A stretch of DNA of 35,738 nt from contig PFSB01000017.1 in NCBI GenBank assembly GCA_002788855.1, positions 1 to 35,738 of the forward strand, read 5' to 3'. A model generated the notes under the pieces. That model saw only the letters and a program-made list of their open reading frames with translations. It was not told where the DNA came from and did no database searches. This stretch comes from Candidatus Roizmanbacteria bacterium CG_4_9_14_0_2_um_filter_38_17. Its GTDB lineage: Bacteria > Patescibacteriota > Microgenomatia > GCA-00278855. Made by a program: the position numbers and the translations under genes. Positions 8,337 to 33,480 of the stretch are shown here, piece after piece; position 1 is the first letter of the stretch, and each line of letters opens with the position of its first letter.

Positions 8337-9616
8337 CCCCATTTCTTAAGTAGGGAAAAGTCAGACTCCCAACGATTACCGATGTCATTTCTGTAGTACA
8401 TGTGAGGAATTATGATGTTTTTGACTCGGCTATAAGCTTGCTTTTGTGCCAGCTTCATAGAGCTACCTGATCCAACAACCACAAGAACCGTGCCTTGGGT
8501 TCCGGATACTACCCAATCGTCGCCATCTTTCCTGACATCTTCTATGTGAACACCGGCACTTAACTGGTTCTTGAAGATAACTAGATTGCCTTTAGATAAG
8601 GTTTCAAATGCCATTTTGTCCTGATACGGATACGGAGGAACCACTACTCTTACTCCAACATGAAAGCCTTTTTTAGTTTTTAGTTTAAAATTCTCTCCCT
8701 TTGCCAATTTATATAAGAATTCGCCGGTTGGAGTTTTAAACGTGTCTTGCTGGATCATAATGGTGGGATACCCAAATCGGCAGGTAAACTCTAAGGGATA
8801 AATATTTTTAAGCGTGACAATACAGTTAATGTCAAAATAGCCGACAAATTTTTCTTCTCTTAGTTTTCCAGTAAAGCGCTCAATTGTTGCTTGTGAGAGC
8901 GAATTTGATTCTTTCCAGAACATGCTGGTTCCCATTTCTCCCGTAGTTACGCCAAGATCACCTGGAAACAGCTTCTTGTGTTCAAAAGAGTGATGGAAAG
9001 GCGGGATAAATTTATTACCATTGAAAAATCCACCGATAGCATATTCAACTCCTGAGATTTTTTGCTGCAATTGTAAGTCTGTCAACTTGTTCTTCTTTCT
9101 CTTGCTATAAGAATTTAATATTCTAATCACATCACTTCCATCCTCCATCTGGCCAACGTACAGCATTCTTTTTATTGAAATATTAGACAAGCGTCCCGAT
9201 GGCTTCACAACATATTTTGCCGGGTGACTATTAATATATTCTATTGCAGACTCACATGAACTAAATTCGTGAAATGGCAAGATTTTCACGCCGTGCTTCT
9301 TTAATTCTAGCTGACCAAATTCCCTGTCATCCTCAAGGCGATCTGTATAGGTTGTTCCGCCAACAACCAGCTTGCCTTTTTTTCGTAGCGCTTGTGCAAA
9401 AAAACCAAATCCGCAGGTATCGTCAAAAACTATAATATCTGCCCAGTCTATATGCTCCTTCCAGTCGGTAACTTTTGTTACAAACCCATCGGCAAGATTT
9501 TGCTGGTCCTTGTCTTTTATAAAATACTTAACCTCATGTCCCTCTTTGGATACTTGCCAAGCTAGATCGCCTATGTACGCACCAATTGATACAAATAGAA
9601 ATTTTTTTTTGTTCAT
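8324..9616 (-). CDS. PurD-like ATP-grasp ligase
   Basis: 430 residues with a PurD (phosphoribosylamine-glycine ligase)-like arrangement: an N-terminal Rossmann-type domain (about 1-105), a central ATP-grasp fold (AKYVVKPSGRLSN near 133, then SGVEYAIGGFF), and YPLEFTCRFGYPTIM, which parallels the EFN/TxRFGDPE motif. A C-terminal domain ends in YSRVKNI. No purine genes are adjacent. Its ATG overlaps the stop of the double ATP-grasp gene (ATGA, 9613-9616), so the two are translationally coupled and probably act on the same product. I infer an acid-amine or amino-acid ligase in a peptide-like pathway rather than true PurD. Confidence 0.7.
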   Translation of the reverse strand: MNKKKFLFVSIGAYIGDLAWQVSKEGHEVKYFIKDKDQQNLADGFVTKVTDWKEHIDWADIIVFDDTCGFGFFAQALRKKGKLVVGGTTYTDRLEDDREFGQLELKKHGVKILPFHEFSSCESAIEYINSHPAKYVVKPSGRLSNISIKRMLYVGQMEDGSDVIRILNSYSKRKKNKLTDLQLQQKISGVEYAIGGFFNGNKFIPPFHHSFEHKKLFPGDLGVTTGEMGTSMFWKESNSLSQATIERFTGKLREEKFVGYFDINCIVTLKNIYPLEFTCRFGYPTIMIQQDTFKTPTGEFLYKLAKGENFKLKTKKGFHVGVRVVVPPYPYQDKMAFETLSKGNLVIFKNQLSAGVHIEDVRKDGDDWVVSGTQGTVLVVVGSGSSMKLAQKQAYSRVKNIIIPHMYYRNDIGNRWESDFSLLKKWGYLD

Positions 9617-11970
9617 TCGTTTCGTGGTTTACCCATGGTTACGGCCTGCTTTCTATAATTATTAACAGATTTTTGTAAAATTTGTTCATATAATTTAGCG
9701 TAATCAAACTTAGGTGTCGTGTACTGTATAAAAGGACTTACATTAACGTCTATGAGACTTGGATTTCCATCTTCGTCCAGCCGAAAGTCAAAACGCGCAT
9801 AGTCCCTGCAATCTAGAATGGTAAAGATATCGAATGACAGTTCGATCAATAATTTTTCAAGTTTTGGATTAATGTCCTTTGCCGGGTAGCTACTTTTAAT
9901 ATAATCTGCTATTGTTCCAATGCCACCTAAGCTTAGCTTTGACTTATTTTTCTGAAATACCAGCTTATTTAACGGCAATGCCTCAAGGTCATTATCATCA
10001 TTTCCAATCACAATTACCTCGTATTCGTCCCCTTCTAAAAATTCTTCCACTACAACGGGACAGTTATAATAATGCATCATCTTTTGAATTTGTGGACGTA
10101 ACTTTTCAGGCTTTGTTATAAGTGATTCATTGTTTATGCCAATCTTAAAATCGTGCGTCGCTGGTTTAACTATTAAGGGATAGATGAGCTCTTCTTTTAT
10201 TTCATCTTCTAGCTCAAAAAGATAGTCCCAATCTGGCAGAGGAACATCGTGAAAGTCTAGTAGTTTTCTTATCTGTATTTTGTCCAATAACTGGCGTGCA
10301 ATGAAGCTAGTTGCGCCAGTAAAAGGTATTCCGGAGATCTCAATAGCTTGTAAATTATGGAAGCTAGGCTTAGAATTACCAAGTTCAATATTGATGAGAT
10401 TTATGATGTAGTCATAGTCGAATTGTCTCAGCTTAGTTAAGATAACATAGCTACTTTCGCTAAGGATTTCTTCAATTTTAAACCCTTTTTTAATTAATCC
10501 ATCTTTGACTTTTACATAGTAATTATTATAGTCGCTCTCCTGATACTGATCGATGTTAGTAACTAGGGCAATATCTAATTTTTTAAGCTCAGTTGAAGAA
10601 ACATAATTAACTTTTTCTTTCTGTAATAGATATTTTTTAGCAATACGCGCAGATGACAGGAAATTGTTTTTCTGTGCCTTTCCAGCAAATGACTGGTAGT
10701 CAAACTTTGTAACCTTTAATTGAACTTGCTCTAATGCCTCTTGCAAGTTGTCATTTACATCCAAAGGGTTTTCACCTGAAACTGTAATCCAGCCGATCGT
10801 CTCGACTCCCTCTGGAGGAACTAAGACCGCGTCTCCGAGCTCTTTGTATAGTAGCATGTCTTCAAAATATGGTTTCTTCTTCAATTTAGGATGGATACTA
10901 ACTTCATTTAAGATTCCCGACTGTTCGGTCGAGAAATCCCAACCAATAATATATTTCTTGGGTTTAAGTTCACGCGTTGAATCTATATACTCTCCACAGG
11001 CAACGCTAGCCGCCAGCTTAATCAGGTCAATTCCCCAAACAGCTAGAATATACGAATAGATATAATCTCCCCCCATTCTAAGGTTTATTTCCAGAGGTAC
11101 CGGGCCGGACTTTGAGTATTTGGCTTCAAAATGAATACAGCCATCAGTTATTCCCATCTTTTCTAGGACCTGCTCGGCCATTTCTATCAGTTCTTTCTGA
11201 TGGGTTGGAGGTAGATTTGAGGGGGTTGCCTGTCCCTTATCTAAGAAAAATTTGCCACGACTCTTGTCATAATTATCCGAAACAATAGCAACTTTTACCT
11301 TGCCATTTTGCAAAACCAGATCAATATCCACTTCGTCTCCGTCAATATATTCTTCGGCAAAAATATCAAGTCCGTCGTGTAGAGCTGTTTCGGTTTGAGT
11401 TGAGAGGTTTTTAACCATGTAGCTGTAAAGCATTTCTAGCTCACTTAGGCACTCTACTTTAATTACTAAGGCTGTTAAGGTTCCATAGGCAGGTTTTAGA
11501 ACTATGGGAAACTCTAAATTTTCCTTAATTTTTAGAAGATCTTCTTTGGAGCTAATCTGTAAATGAGCTGGAGTTGGTAGATTATTTGCTTTACAAAATT
11601 CTCGGAAAAAAAGCTTATTTCTGGCTCTGCTTGCTATAGTAAAAGAGCTTCCTTTTAGGCCTAAAGCATCAACGAGCTTCGCGGTAAGTAAAACATCATC
11701 TTCCCAGAAAGTTATTACACCATCTAACTTAATCAGTTTTTTGCGGATAAAAGAAACAGTATCTGAAACTGCCTGGACATGATTGTAGTTATCTGAAATG
11801 ACCCAGTCTGTAACATAATCTTTTGCCCAGTTAACCTCGGAATTAAGACAATAGATTCTATATCCAAGCTCTTTAAGTCTGGCAAAAATAAACTTCTTTT
11901 TGTAATAGCCAGTGTTAACTACAAGGAGGTTTTTAGCAGAGGGGGGTTCGACCTTAGAATCTGTCTTCAT
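9613..11970 (-). CDS. Tandem ATP-grasp ligase (amino-acid ligase-like plus D-Ala-D-Ala ligase-like)
   Basis: 785 residues with two ATP-grasp modules. The N-terminal half (about 1-420) resembles carboxylate-amine/L-amino-acid ligases: FPIVLKPAYGT, FAEEYIDGDEVDIDLVL and PLEINLRMGGDYIYSYI, followed by an LAL-like C-terminal lobe. The C-terminal half (about 470-785) resembles D-alanine-D-alanine ligase: GIPFTGATSF, YPLIVKPATHDFKIGI, VVEEFLEGDEYEV, then YARFDFRLDEDGNPSLIDVNVSPF. Fusion of the two types in one chain is uncommon. It lies between a 104-residue protein upstream (24-nt gap) and the PurD-like ligase downstream (4-bp overlap). This suggests stepwise ligation of two or three amino or carboxylic acids. 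Substrates are unknown. Confidence 0.75.
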   Translation of the reverse strand: MKTDSKVEPPSAKNLLVVNTGYYKKKFIFARLKELGYRIYCLNSEVNWAKDYVTDWVISDNYNHVQAVSDTVSFIRKKLIKLDGVITFWEDDVLLTAKLVDALGLKGSSFTIASRARNKLFFREFCKANNLPTPAHLQISSKEDLLKIKENLEFPIVLKPAYGTLTALVIKVECLSELEMLYSYMVKNLSTQTETALHDGLDIFAEEYIDGDEVDIDLVLQNGKVKVAIVSDNYDKSRGKFFLDKGQATPSNLPPTHQKELIEMAEQVLEKMGITDGCIHFEAKYSKSGPVPLEINLRMGGDYIYSYILAVWGIDLIKLAASVACGEYIDSTRELKPKKYIIGWDFSTEQSGILNEVSIHPKLKKKPYFEDMLLYKELGDAVLVPPEGVETIGWITVSGENPLDVNDNLQEALEQVQLKVTKFDYQSFAGKAQKNNFLSSARIAKKYLLQKEKVNYVSSTELKKLDIALVTNIDQYQESDYNNYYVKVKDGLIKKGFKIEEILSESSYVILTKLRQFDYDYIINLINIELGNSKPSFHNLQAIEISGIPFTGATSFIARQLLDKIQIRKLLDFHDVPLPDWDYLFELEDEIKEELIYPLIVKPATHDFKIGINNESLITKPEKLRPQIQKMMHYYNCPVVVEEFLEGDEYEVIVIGNDDNDLEALPLNKLVFQKNKSKLSLGGIGTIADYIKSSYPAKDINPKLEKLLIELSFDIFTILDCRDYARFDFRLDEDGNPSLIDVNVSPFIQYTTPKFDYAKLYEQILQKSVNNYRKQAVTMGKPRNE

Positions 11971-11994
11971 GTATGTGTATACATCTATTATTAC

Positions 11995-29508: not shown

Positions 29509-30516
29509 TTAGCGCTTTATCTGTGATTTGCCCCAAACGGAAGGAGCGCTCTTATCTTCTTTAAGATATGTAAAAGCCGTGGCAGCCGCGCGCGCGCCTA
29601 AGCCCACAGCTGAGGCTATCTGTTCGATAGAAAAGCCGTAGTGAATCAGGTCGCCAGCTGCAAAAACGCCGGGGACATTGGTCTCTAAAGTCTGATTTAC
29701 ATGTACATATCCCCCCTTGTCCATCTTGACACCAATGGGGATCATGAGTGCAGATCCCGGAACACCGCCTATTTCAATAAAAAGTTTGTTCAGTTTAATT
29801 TCCTGTTTCTTACTATCACTATTTCCCTTGATAAATATATTTACTCCTGTTAATTCTTTGTCTGAGCCTGATATTTTCTCAACTAGCGCATTACATATAA
29901 CAGTTATATTCTTGCTCTTTTCTACCTGATCAAGCCACACAGGATCTCCTCGAAGCTCACTACCTCGGTAGATAAGATAAACCTTGGAGGCAACCTGGGC
30001 AACCTGCACAGCCGCCTGAACAGCCGAGTTAGCTCCCCCTACAACGGCACAGATCTGTCCCTTGTAGTCCTGCTTTTCACACGTTGCACAATACAGCACG
30101 CCTTTGCCAGTGTACTCTACTTCGCCAGGAATATTCAGCTTTCTTCTTTCCATCCCTGTTGCAAGAATAATAGACTTACATGTAAAGGCTTCGCCTTTAT
30201 ATGTTTGGATTTTGAACTTATGATCCTTAATTTGCTCTATTCTAATGACTTCATCTTCGATGAGCTCTCCGTTTACATCAGCGTCCACTTCTTTTGCGCG
30301 CTTTGCCGCTTGCTTGACCATGCGCTCCGTTAACTCTTTTCCAGTAATATCTTCAAAGCCAGGATAGTTTAGGATATCTGGAGCTAGCTGGAGTTGACCG
30401 CCAACGGTTTTGCCAATAATAATATGAGAAAGATGAAAACAAGAACAGTAGATAGAAGCCGTTAATCCAGCTGGACCCGCTCCTATTATGATTACATCTA
30501 ATGGTTCAGTATTCAT
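29509..30516 (-). CDS. trxB: Thioredoxin reductase-like FAD/NAD(P)H oxidoreductase
   Basis: 335 residues. FAD-binding VIIIGAGPAGLTAS (about 8-21), GGQLQLAPDILNYPGF, the redox-active CATC (143-146, followed by Glu instead of the usual Asp), NAD(P)H-binding VVGGANSAVQAA and the C-terminal GVFAAGDLI motif are present. It would reduce thioredoxin or a related protein with NAD(P)H. Residues 107-111 (KGEAF) are encoded by an AAAGGC-family palindrome. Leaderless start: TATAAT (30528-30523) is exactly 7 nt upstream. A second, truncated copy of the N-terminus lies at 32952-33080. Confidence 0.85.
   Translation of the reverse strand: MNTEPLDVIIIGAGPAGLTASIYCSCFHLSHIIIGKTVGGQLQLAPDILNYPGFEDITGKELTERMVKQAAKRAKEVDADVNGELIEDEVIRIEQIKDHKFKIQTYKGEAFTCKSIILATGMERRKLNIPGEVEYTGKGVLYCATCEKQDYKGQICAVVGGANSAVQAAVQVAQVASKVYLIYRGSELRGDPVWLDQVEKSKNITVICNALVEKISGSDKELTGVNIFIKGNSDSKKQEIKLNKLFIEIGGVPGSALMIPIGVKMDKGGYVHVNQTLETNVPGVFAAGDLIHYGFSIEQIASAVGLGARAAATAFTYLKEDKSAPSVWGKSQIKR
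30178..30204. repeat. AAAGGC-family palindrome inside trxB
   Basis: 12-bp arms with one mismatch around the loop TTC; the core 30184-30198 is read on the coding strand as K-G-E-A-F. The first 22 bp are identical to the intergenic copy at 16142-16163. Confidence 0.85.
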
Positions 30517-30523
30517 GTGTCAA

Positions 30524-31357
30524 TTATACTTCTTTTGTTGTTTTAACCTTTGCAAGGTTAAACCATTGTAGAGAATCGTATGCGGCCTGGTTTGAAGTAC
30601 GATAATCATGACCTGCCTCTTTATATAAGACTAATTTAAAATTTGATTTGCTTTGTGGATGTGTTGTGATTAGCTGTTTATGGAAACTTGCTGACTGTGA
30701 ATAATCAATGCATTGATCATTTATCCCATGACCTATAAATATTTTTGTGTTGTCTAAATATTTAACGTTGTCTACTGGAGCCAAACCATCTTCATTATTA
30801 AGGTGTTTTCGCCATATGGGCGATGTTATTCCTCTATATAAATAGTGATACCCATCTTTCTTCATTCCTCGCATAAAATCCTCATTACTCTCTTCTCCTT
30901 GTATGCTCCCACAGGCTTTATTGTTGACTGCTGGATATATTAGACATAATTCACTAATTTTCTTTTCAAATCTAGGTAAGAGTGGAATATAACTACCTCC
31001 AAAACTTCTTCCCATAAATATGATTCTTTTGTATTTTAGTATTCGTTTTTTTCGTGAATAGTGGTTAATTGCGGTTGTGCCTGCCATGAATTCATGGTAC
31101 AAGTCCAAAAAAGTTTGTATACAGCCCTGTGGAGTACATATTCCATCGCTTCTACCGTAGCCAATATAGTCAGGTACAAATAAATCAGTCTGATAGCTAA
31201 GAATATGTTTGGCGTCTGGTAAGTTTCCATTATCTGGTGGGATCGGAGCTCCCGGCCCGTAGATCACAACTGTGTCATTGTTTAAGCTTTGCTCACTTAC
31301 ATTGCTATATAAAATTCCTGCTATTTTTTTGATACGTAACAATTCAAAATTATACAT
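30524..31357 (-). CDS. Alpha/beta hydrolase
   Basis: 277 residues. The nucleophile elbow is MGRSFGGSY with S118. An Asp in HGINDQCIDYSQS and the His of KEAGHDYRT complete a plausible Ser-Asp-His triad. PDYIGYGRSDG is the usual early strand-turn. It looks cytoplasmic; prolyl oligopeptidase- or esterase-like, substrate unknown. The trxB -10 box lies in its last codons. The C-terminal segment FNLAKVK is encoded by a perfect hairpin (30542-30562). Confidence 0.75.
   Translation of the reverse strand: MYNFELLRIKKIAGILYSNVSEQSLNNDTVVIYGPGAPIPPDNGNLPDAKHILSYQTDLFVPDYIGYGRSDGICTPQGCIQTFLDLYHEFMAGTTAINHYSRKKRILKYKRIIFMGRSFGGSYIPLLPRFEKKISELCLIYPAVNNKACGSIQGEESNEDFMRGMKKDGYHYLYRGITSPIWRKHLNNEDGLAPVDNVKYLDNTKIFIGHGINDQCIDYSQSASFHKQLITTHPQSKSNFKLVLYKEAGHDYRTSNQAAYDSLQWFNLAKVKTTKEV
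30542..30562. repeat. Perfect hairpin in the 3' end of the hydrolase gene
   Basis: TTTAACCTT / TGC / AAGGTTAAA, 9-bp arms, 3-nt loop, upstream of the trxB start. It is unrelated in sequence to the AAAGGC family but has the same geometry. Confidence 0.65.
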
Positions 31358-31368
31358 TGCTGTTTATA

Positions 31369-32220
31369 TTAGACAATAATATCGATTCGAGGATAGTGTA
31401 CACCATGTGTGAATAAATTCCCAAGTCTTAACAATAATTCACCTCGCTCAAAATATAGGTTGAGTCTATTTTTTCTACTTTCATGTCCATCAAATAGCCA
31501 ATACTGCCTAATCAGCCATTCTGTCGCATCTTGTCCGTATGATTTGATCATGCTGGATACAATTTGTTTTGGATTTTTTCTAAGTGATCCTGTTTCTGGA
31601 TTGATAACCGATTCATCAAATATTATTCCGTCACTGATAAGTTTTGCAACCAAATCATGCACTTTGGCAGCACTAAGTCGAATTTCCTCATCTGGTTGCA
31701 TTGCTGGAACAAAGCGCGGAAACTCGATGGGCATATTACTATATCTAGATAATGACCAAGGGATCCCTTTTTCTGTAAATATACCCGCAGCCTGTCGGTA
31801 GGCGTCTTCATTCCTCATGAGCACATCAATATCCTCGGAAGTAGGATTCTTTGTGAGCACGCCAGCATCAGCAAAAGTAAGATTTACAGAGGGAATAACT
31901 CCAGACTGGGCTTTATTCAAATATTTCTGAACTGCCAGAACAGTTTCCACCATAGCTGTCCATTTGCCACCAACTCGACTTGCCTCAATTGGATTACCAA
32001 CACAGCTAGGGTCGATCAATGCGGAATCATAGCCTTGGACATATAATGGACAGAGGGTTACATTCATAGGTAGTTGATCTCCTAATACGTATACTTTTTC
32101 TAAATGCGATCCTGGCGTTCTTAGATTTAGACCACGTTCCCGTAGACAATCCACTACCCCATCCGTGGAGATGCCACGATCCGAAAGTGTATGCTCTATA
32201 TGTGCAACTGACTCGTTCAT
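31369..32220 (-). CDS. Hypothetical protein divergent from an ACT-domain regulator
   Basis: 283 residues from ATG 32220 (weak AGGA 9 nt upstream; an ATG at 32247 abuts a TATAAT and is unlikely to be used). I do not recognise the family. It is soluble, with no signal or membrane segment. Notable conserved-looking stretches are GLNLRTPGSHLEKVYVLGDQ, SVNLTFADAGVLTKNPT and REW-like QYWLFDGHESRKNRL near the end. Eleven nt separate it from the alpha/beta hydrolase gene, so both are likely co-transcribed. The operator-like palindrome at 32309 may control it. An enzyme of amino-acid or secondary metabolism is possible but unproven. Confidence 0.55.
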   Translation of the reverse strand: MNESVAHIEHTLSDRGISTDGVVDCLRERGLNLRTPGSHLEKVYVLGDQLPMNVTLCPLYVQGYDSALIDPSCVGNPIEASRVGGKWTAMVETVLAVQKYLNKAQSGVIPSVNLTFADAGVLTKNPTSEDIDVLMRNEDAYRQAAGIFTEKGIPWSLSRYSNMPIEFPRFVPAMQPDEEIRLSAAKVHDLVAKLISDGIIFDESVINPETGSLRKNPKQIVSSMIKSYGQDATEWLIRQYWLFDGHESRKNRLNLYFERGELLLRLGNLFTHGVHYPRIDIIV

Positions 32221-32308
32221 TTTTATCCTATAATAATTAATGCTCATATTATATTGGGAAAAATGAAGATATCAATTTTTTAACTGATTTACACAAAATA
32301 CTAATTAT

Positions 32309-32326
32309 ATGTTAATATATTAACAT
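32309..32326 (+). promoter_or_regulatory. 18-bp perfect palindrome over the start of the ACT-domain gene
   Basis: ATGTTAATA-TATTAACAT, covering the extended -10 box (TG-T-TAATAT, 32310-32318) and the first bases of the ATG at 32325. A protein bound here would block its own leaderless transcript, so this is a strong candidate for an autoregulatory operator. Confidence 0.65.
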
Positions 32327-32975
32327 GATAACCGTACCCGATATTGTTCGCAAAATAATTAGTCGAACTCCTTATTTAGAGGAAGCATTATCTAGAGACA
32401 TTATTAATCTGTCTGGATTAGCACGAGATATCCGTCCCGAAGTAGAGAAACTAACTATGAAAAAGGTTGAACTAGGATCTGTAATTATGGCTTTAAAGAG
32501 ACTTCAACCTAAGCTTAGAACAAGCTTAGAACTTGAAATGATTTTTAAAACACCTCCAGAGCTAATTTTACGCTCCAATCTGTTAGAAATTACAATAGCA
32601 AATTCATCATTACTTGCAGAAAAGCAGAAACATCTTCTACTTTATGCGAGCAAACGTCATGCTCAATTTATTACTATTACTCATGGTATTTTTGAAACAA
32701 CAATTATTGCTAGTCGGCAGACATTAGACATGATCTATAAACTATATAAAGACGAAAAAATTATATCTGAGATAGCAGATTTATCATCAATTACTGTAAA
32801 GTTCCCCGTAGATATAATCAATACTTCAGGGGTGTACTACACTATTCTCAAGATACTCGCTTGGGAAAATATTGATATTACTGAGGTTGTTTCAACTTAC
32901 TCAGAAATTACAATTATCCTTAAAAAGGATTATGTTGAACGAGCATTTGGGTTAATCAAAGGACTCTTTGACTAA
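32325..32975 (+). CDS. ACT-domain protein, putative amino-acid-responsive regulator
   Basis: 216 residues. The C-terminal SGVYYTILKILAWENIDITEVVSTYSEITIILKKDYVERAFGLIK (about 166-210) has the beta-alpha-beta-beta-alpha-beta pattern of ACT domains as in aspartate kinase. A second, more diverged ACT-like stretch may precede it (LEITIANSS and following). The N-terminal ~60 residues are helical with GLARDIRPEVEKLTMKKVELGSVIMALKRL, compatible with a winged helix. No kinase domain is present. The start lies exactly 7 nt after its -10 box, within a palindrome. I infer an autoregulated repressor of the divergent gene. Confidence 0.65.
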   Translation: MITVPDIVRKIISRTPYLEEALSRDIINLSGLARDIRPEVEKLTMKKVELGSVIMALKRLQPKLRTSLELEMIFKTPPELILRSNLLEITIANSSLLAEKQKHLLLYASKRHAQFITITHGIFETTIIASRQTLDMIYKLYKDEKIISEIADLSSITVKFPVDIINTSGVYYTILKILAWENIDITEVVSTYSEITIILKKDYVERAFGLIKGLFD

Positions 32976-33080
32976 TAATTCTTCACTTGTAACATTGTTT
33001 TGAGTATCTGATGAAGCAAATCCGTGGCATCCAGCAGGTCCTGCTCCAATGATTACTACATCTAAATTATCTTTGTGCAT
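32952..33080 (-). pseudogene. Truncated thioredoxin reductase-like N-terminus
   Basis: The minus strand encodes 42 residues starting MHKDNLDVVIIGAGPAGC, the FAD-binding start of a TrxB-like protein (compare MNTEPLDVIIIGAGPAGL at 30516), then an unrelated tail to a TAA at 32954-32952. Its 3' end overlaps the end of the ACT-domain gene. It is a remnant unless the 42-residue peptide is used. Confidence 0.75.
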
Positions 33081-33210: not shown

Positions 33211-33480
33211 ATGAATGAAACTTTGAAATTTGGTATTGAACCAGAGCTGTTGGCTGAAGTAGATTTGTTTAGAGCTATTTGTAATGATGAGAATAATCAT
33301 ATACCTACGCCACAAGAACTAGGGGCTGTAACAGCTTTTTCTGATGCTTTATTTTCATATGATAACGAAGCCCTGGATATTGTGGCCCAGTTTTTTGAAC
33401 CAGGTGAAGATGGGTTAACAACGATAAGCGAGGCAGCAATGCAATTGCACGATTATGTTTGTCAAACGTCCAGTGTTTGA
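33211..33480 (+). CDS. Small acidic protein with a strong ribosome binding site
   Basis: 89 residues, acidic, largely helical, no membrane segment and one cysteine. No family was recognised. The start ATG 33211 is fixed by the strong Shine-Dalgarno sequence. Size, acidity and leadered expression are shared with the gene at 6229-6513, although I see no convincing sequence similarity. It stands alone between debris and a convergent gene. The efficient expression signal suggests an abundant product. Confidence 0.6.
   Translation: MNETLKFGIEPELLAEVDLFRAICNDENNHIPTPQELGAVTAFSDALFSYDNEALDIVAQFFEPGEDGLTTISEAAMQLHDYVCQTSSV

Follow-up and report, generated by a model that had tools for sequence, protein, structure and literature searches.

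In a Roizmanbacteria genome, a palindrome overlaps the start codon of a gene whose product resembles amino-acid sensors. The locus raises the question whether this palindrome is the operator of an autoregulated regulator and, if so, which signal the protein senses and which genes it controls. The window, i.e., the whole stretch of DNA analyzed, comprises 35,738 nucleotides and is the first part of a contig of 101,864 bases (genome 1.09 Mb, 98.85% complete). Coordinates of the features are compiled in Table 1. To our knowledge, regulation in the tiny-genome Patescibacteria has been little explored. In the comparisons described below, relatives from several other phyla have retained this kind of site and stand back-to-back with lysine genes, which suggests a family of lysine regulators that had gone unrecognised.

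Table 1. Features of the regulator locus (positions refer to the window; promoter elements and operator are predicted)
Feature	Position	Strand	Remarks
Alpha/beta hydrolase (S9-peptidase-like), 277 aa	30524..31357	-	Downstream of the orphan gene; Peptidase_S9 7e-09
Orphan protein, 283 aa	31369..32220	-	ATG at 32220, preceded by ribosome-binding-site-like TAGGAT (32225-32230)
-10 TATAAT of the divergent promoter (ATTATA)	32248..32253	-	All 6 letters agree at the offset conserved in relatives
-35-like TTGATA of the divergent promoter (ATCAA 32271-32275)	32270..32275	-	Conserved GTCAA element of relatives
-35-like TACACA of the regulator promoter	32290..32295	+	Many relatives read TTGACA here; 17-bp spacing to the -10
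Putative operator, 18-bp palindrome ATGTTAATATATTAACAT	32309..32326	.	Over -10 and start codon; TGTnnn-N4-nnnACA kept in 79/126 relatives' starts
-10-like TAATAT of the regulator promoter, TG upstream	32313..32318	+	Same position as in relatives; inferred
Regulator gene, 216 aa	32325..32975	+	Predicted four-helix N-terminal domain (1-70) and tandem ACT domains of the aspartokinase type (72-216)
Broken 5' end of a thioredoxin-reductase-like gene	33029..33080	-	Resembles the start of the intact gene 29509-30516

The first-pass annotation had described the protein as an amino-acid-sensing regulator with a single C-terminal ACT domain. A Pfam ACT_7 match was found at residues 155-208, though below the curated cut-off (E 0.0014). 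An AlphaFold2 model computed from 47 sequences reached a mean pLDDT of 91.4 and, read by its order of strands and helices, contained two consecutive ACT-like units after the N-terminal helices. The number of ACT domains thus has to be corrected from one to two (residues 72-216). A role as an amino-acid-sensing regulator is supported. In a fold search, the best matches of the model were regulatory domains of aspartokinases (3tvi, 3ab4, 3aaw, 2j0w), which share the tandem ACT fold of residues 72-216 with Z values up to 14.5 over 137-140 residues (rmsd 2.7-3.0) and which were also recovered by profile. Threonine-binding aspartokinases were among the matches, as were the CASTOR arginine sensors at a Z of about 9. 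The confident model thus predicts tandem ACT domains of the aspartokinase type. Unlike aspartokinase, which has a kinase domain, the regulator carries a helical N-terminal domain of 70 residues; no Pfam model of an amino-acid kinase domain matched the 216-aa protein, and NCBIfam aspartokinase matches covered only residues 130-215.

The N-terminal domain was modelled with high confidence as four helices (residues 4-14, 18-23, 29-44 and 50-63). A sequence search of the PDB gave no solved match for it (best E 1.3), and no solved fold was matched in the fold search, which barely tests this domain. At E 0.01, the N-termini of 16 of the 47 family members matched Pfam DUF7523 (PF24367), once over the cut-off of 27 (relative L164, 32.0 bits, residues 3-76), while the regulator of the window gave no match. 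DUF7523 is a family without assigned function, for which no naming paper was found in the open-licence literature.

A single-sequence search detected relatives of the regulator in 12 of 59 near genomes; profile searches did so in 61 of 373 genomes of the class, probably the Microgenomates group, and in 30 of 379 genomes of the phylum, each of these counts including the own genome. When named genomes were scanned, 209 relatives emerged and 80 were retained. Among their record titles are Roizmanbacteria, Daviesbacteria, Curtissbacteria, Flavobacteriales and, mostly as metagenome bins, Bacteroidetes, Acidobacteriota, Aminicenantes and Calditrichia; named strains include Lishizhenia, Taishania and Butyricimonas. 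After collapsing loci at least 90% identical, 104 of 136 remained as the non-redundant set. Rows L088 and L120, in which the regulator ORF was not identified, were dropped, as were L126, L143 and L187.

It was the gene neighbourhood that pointed to lysine as the ligand; the first-pass annotation had named none. Neighbours were clustered by BLAST and cluster representatives named by family models. Lysine genes stood divergent to the regulator within 5.2 kb in 48 of the 104 non-redundant loci, compared with two of 104 on the downstream side. The representatives included LysX (TIGR02144), LysW (TIGR01206), [LysW]-aminoadipate kinase, ArgC/LysY, DapA, DapB, aspartokinase, LysO, lysyl-tRNA synthetases (LysRS) of class I and class II, and an Orn/Lys/Arg decarboxylase. 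They were joined by a homocitrate/isopropylmalate-synthase-type enzyme that remained below curated cut-offs, and by a homoaconitase-type gene. A DapF label rested on a weak match below the cut-off (3.3e-05), the labels LysJ and small homoaconitase were given by eye, and the LysO of locus L087 is outside the count of 48. In held-out loci with flanks of about 1.5 kb, lysine genes lay upstream on the opposite strand in 8 of 24 cases. In three genomes (L222, L225, L227), the genes divergent from the regulator comprised both a LysO-like exporter and a LysRS of class II. By these assignments, the divergent side in many relatives appears to make, charge or export lysine.

Lysine is a likely ligand of the family as a whole, and for the genome studied here it is still the better guess. 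The regulator might instead be real and respond to arginine or ornithine derived via the LysW pathway, to threonine, or to several of these compounds. The arginine-sensing CASTOR1 proteins and the threonine-binding aspartokinases among the fold matches fit such ligands, LysW/LysX pathways can also make arginine, and the decarboxylase, histone-deacetylase-like and racemase neighbours are not lysine-specific. However, the homocitrate-synthase-like and homoaconitase-like enzymes, DapA, DapB, LysO and both types of LysRS share the same slot, and it is lysine that unites them; another ligand is therefore improbable. At L083, L103, L109 and other loci, an enzyme of the histone-deacetylase family recurs together with a GNAT-like protein as a divergent pair next to the regulator; the two possibly act on acetylated lysine or polyamines.

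The 18-bp palindrome, which had been reported on the start codon and the -10 box, was indeed present. ATGTTAATATATTAACAT is perfect, its final two bases are the AT of the regulator ATG, and it overlaps the extended -10-like sequence TGTTAATAT. It was the only perfect palindrome of at least 18 bp in the window and had no second copy there even at up to three mismatches. Nevertheless, 17 of 100 dinucleotide-shuffled windows contained at least one perfect palindrome of this length (mean 0.2). On its own, the palindrome of the window is no better than chance and proves nothing; its significance derives from its conservation among relatives.

Conservation upstream of orthologues had been set beforehand as one of two tests on which the idea could fail, the other being a DNA-binding fold in the N-terminus; the orthologues did not refute it. 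When upstream regions were compared, TGTTAA-N4-TTAAC was seen immediately 5' of the ATG in many relatives. Sites were scored by the six pairs of TGTnnn-N4-nnnACA within a stretch that began 87 bp upstream and ended at the start codon. An inverted repeat of at least five of the six pairs was found at 79 of 126 regulator starts, namely at 62 of the 104 non-redundant starts and at 17 of 22 held-out starts. The held-out starts were fetched later from other genomes of the phylum, and their proteins share at most 63% identity with the earlier ones; this count excludes L214 and L215, which were already used, as well as L230 and L236, which were fragmentary or had an unclear start. By chance, the same score was reached in 0.95% of 2520 dinucleotide shuffles and in 1.2% of random 90-mers of the same loci (n=2520; 0.6% perfect), which may include the promoters themselves. 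Perfect sites occurred at 45 of the 126 starts as against 0.04% of the shuffles, and the exact TGTnA-N6-TnACA at 49 of 104 regulator starts compared with 11 of 768 other ORF starts. Thus, a conserved symmetric operator at the own promoter, as expected of an autoregulated one-component regulator, was found at the level of sequence, and it is very likely that the family consists of autoregulated DNA-binding proteins. The remaining 47 of the 126 starts had no site at five or more pairs; among 13 Flavobacteriales-type loci there was one operator match.

The letters of the half-site varied by lineage while the symmetry was retained (TGTTAA, TGTTAC, TGTTAT, TGTAAT, TGTCAA, TGTTTA, TGTATG, TGTATA). 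For a test of symmetric covariation, identical sites were collapsed from 57 to 42, two loci having no anchor. With the left half as sole anchor, positions 4 and 6 were symmetric in 31 and 24 of the 42 sites (permuted means 21.7 and 15.8), and the combined value of both positions was reached in none of 20000 permutations. The letters of the perfect operators changed at least 11 times on a tree for which only the ACT part was used; shared ancestry is not fully removed in either of these tests.

These data also bear on the question whose operator it is. The site could belong to another regulator, e.g., a redox repressor of the Rex type, as its letters resemble the Rex consensus TTGTTAA-N4-TTAACAA. 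Yet TGTTA-N6-TAACA was no commoner in the genomes than its reversed control while being placed at the regulator's own start, and the operator letters change with the lineage of the regulator, which makes a foreign repressor quite improbable. Least probable of all is the view that the sequence is a promoter only, composed of the extended -10 TGTTAATAT and the start-codon context TTAACATG and symmetric by accident: its left half does coincide with an extended -10-like sequence and the window palindrome alone is not significant, but variation in one half is matched in the other, sites displaced from the -10 (e.g., -31 to -64) are still symmetric, and so are the variants TGTATG, TGTTTA and TGTCAA. 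The preferred reading thus remains an operator bound by the regulator itself.

No regulon defined by TGTTA-N6-TAACA emerged across the genome: this genome has two copies of the exact motif and each of 12 genomes has 0-5, a frequency similar to that of the reversed control. Two near matches to the palindrome, C9 and C16, lie inside genes, by eye a penicillin-binding-protein-like and a helicase-like one, and were taken as chance. Two further sites with three mismatches are C5 and C17:88803.

Protein residues were also compared with the operator letters. Of the residues tested, the one most strongly associated with operator position 4 was residue 55 (z 16.3), located in helix 50-63, the last of the N-terminal helices, as would be expected of a DNA-reading helix. 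High scores for this position were also obtained beyond the N-terminus, e.g., for residues 208, 204 and 154. Since residues of the ACT part are among them, shared ancestry contributes to the association, and the apparent protein-DNA covariation is in part a trace of descent. For position 4 and residue 55, only three supported independent pairs were available, a number too small for testing; an average of 2.8 of them agreed in direction and none was opposed. A link between Arg50 and C6 of the operator appeared strong by Fisher's test (p 0.0005); it was rejected, as position 6 and Arg50 are covered by one supported independent pair.

The divergent promoter that had been postulated next to the palindrome is supported by a conserved geometry into which the window fits. 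For 33 of the 104 loci, selected by (G/A)TCAA-N14 in front of a loose -35 and an operator score of at least 4, ATTATA, which was not a selection criterion, peaked 23 bases left of GTCAA, with at least five of six letters in 17 loci; any other offset gave at most 8 of 33. This arrangement describes two back-to-back promoters whose -35 elements are 14 bp apart. In all 32 measured loci, the operator centre lay 75-79 bp from the divergent start site. The window contains ATTATA, ATCAA, TACACA, TAATAT and the ATG at the conserved spacing, suggesting that a rigid bidirectional promoter joins the regulator to its divergent gene here as in the relatives. A ribosome-binding site was not seen before the regulator ATG. 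The regulator transcript is therefore presumably leaderless, as the spacing between -10 and ATG also implies. M1 was invariant in 47 aligned relatives. An upstream sequence, GTCAAATTTTTAAC, had been considered as a second operator; this idea was dropped because conservation does not extend to its right arm and because the divergent promoter would have its -35 there. No RNA element was found around the regulator gene (Rfam, 2001 bases).

The sequences themselves show the conserved operator and promoter geometry, the lysine neighbourhood and, by prediction, the tandem ACT fold; DNA binding, lysine as ligand, the sign of regulation and the role of the orphan are inferred. The tandem ACT domains would sense lysine, and the N-terminal helical domain, as a dimer, would bind TGTTAA-N4-TTAACA over the regulator's own -10 and start codon. 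Because the operator covers both elements, the bound protein may block its own leaderless promoter. The divergent promoter, with its -35 only 14 bp from that of the regulator and its start site 77 bp from the operator centre, would be controlled from the same operator, either by mutual exclusion, RNA polymerase occupying one promoter at a time, or by activation through the regulator bound 77 bp upstream. Lysine would most likely weaken binding or activation and so serve as a stop signal. This sign, proposed by analogy with LysM, is tentative. As a whole, the explanation by an autoregulated, lysine-sensing one-component regulator acting through this operator and promoter is probable. If true, an unnamed ACT protein would obtain a function, and lysine biosynthesis, export and tRNA charging would be tied to one sensor; for this family, ligand and DNA site are predicted, the layout of the promoter is described and candidate specificity residues can be named.

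LysM of Sulfolobus and FL11 of Pyrococcus, members of the Lrp family, combine a helix-turn-helix with an alpha/beta amino-acid-binding domain and exert lysine-linked control of lysWXJK or lysJKYZ (PMC2995911). The regulator would resemble them in this architecture, and the gene neighbourhood in its relatives would fit a control of lysine genes as well. However, Lrp proteins possess one RAM domain, whereas the regulator has two ACT domains matching those of aspartokinase. No Lrp/AsnC model matched the window regulator at E 1, nor was it among the five families matched by the 47 members at E 0.01. Open-licence papers yielded no description of such a regulator, which is a weak negative.

In the genome studied here, the same regulator and promoter would precede a hydrolase and a 283-aa protein specific to the lineage, perhaps serving amino-acid salvage. 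Both genes had been noted before; neither is conserved next to the regulator or recognisable as a lysine gene, and neither Pfam nor NCBIfam recognised the 283-aa protein. Its status as part of a conserved divergent pair was not supported, as lysine genes occupy the slot in many relatives and 378 other genomes of the phylum held no convincing relative (one 48-residue match, E 7.5e-4). There was likewise no solved relative, none in phages and none among the neighbour proteins (best E 0.78); a single-sequence model (pLDDT 34) was set aside. LysX over the cut-off, DapA and class II LysRS were not found in this genome. A 793-aa open frame (window 9616-11994) matches LysX/ATP-grasp weakly, with 41.5 bits against a cut-off of 275.6. 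A class I LysRS is encoded on another contig beside GreA-, RdgB- and SerRS-like genes (by eye), which in some relatives, e.g., L114, surround the regulator itself; no operator was seen by eye in 320 bases around its start.

The cassette 30524-32975 is situated between the intact (29509-30516) and the broken thioredoxin-reductase-like gene, whose starts align best over 37 bp with a score of 39 (shuffled maximum 24). This position may reflect relocation. That the regulator and its promoter left the lysine genes as a mobile cassette and captured orphan and hydrolase, forming in this lineage a new lysine-salvage unit with an orphan of no known family, is a doubtful extension. Flavobacteriales relatives (e.g., L155, L161), mostly without operator and without lysine neighbours, adjoin a cytidylate-kinase-like gene (by eye); a change of role is possible in this group. 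Beyond the broken gene, an 89-aa ORF (window 33211-33480) without family match (E 0.1 at best) is preceded by a strong ribosome-binding-site-like GGAGG.
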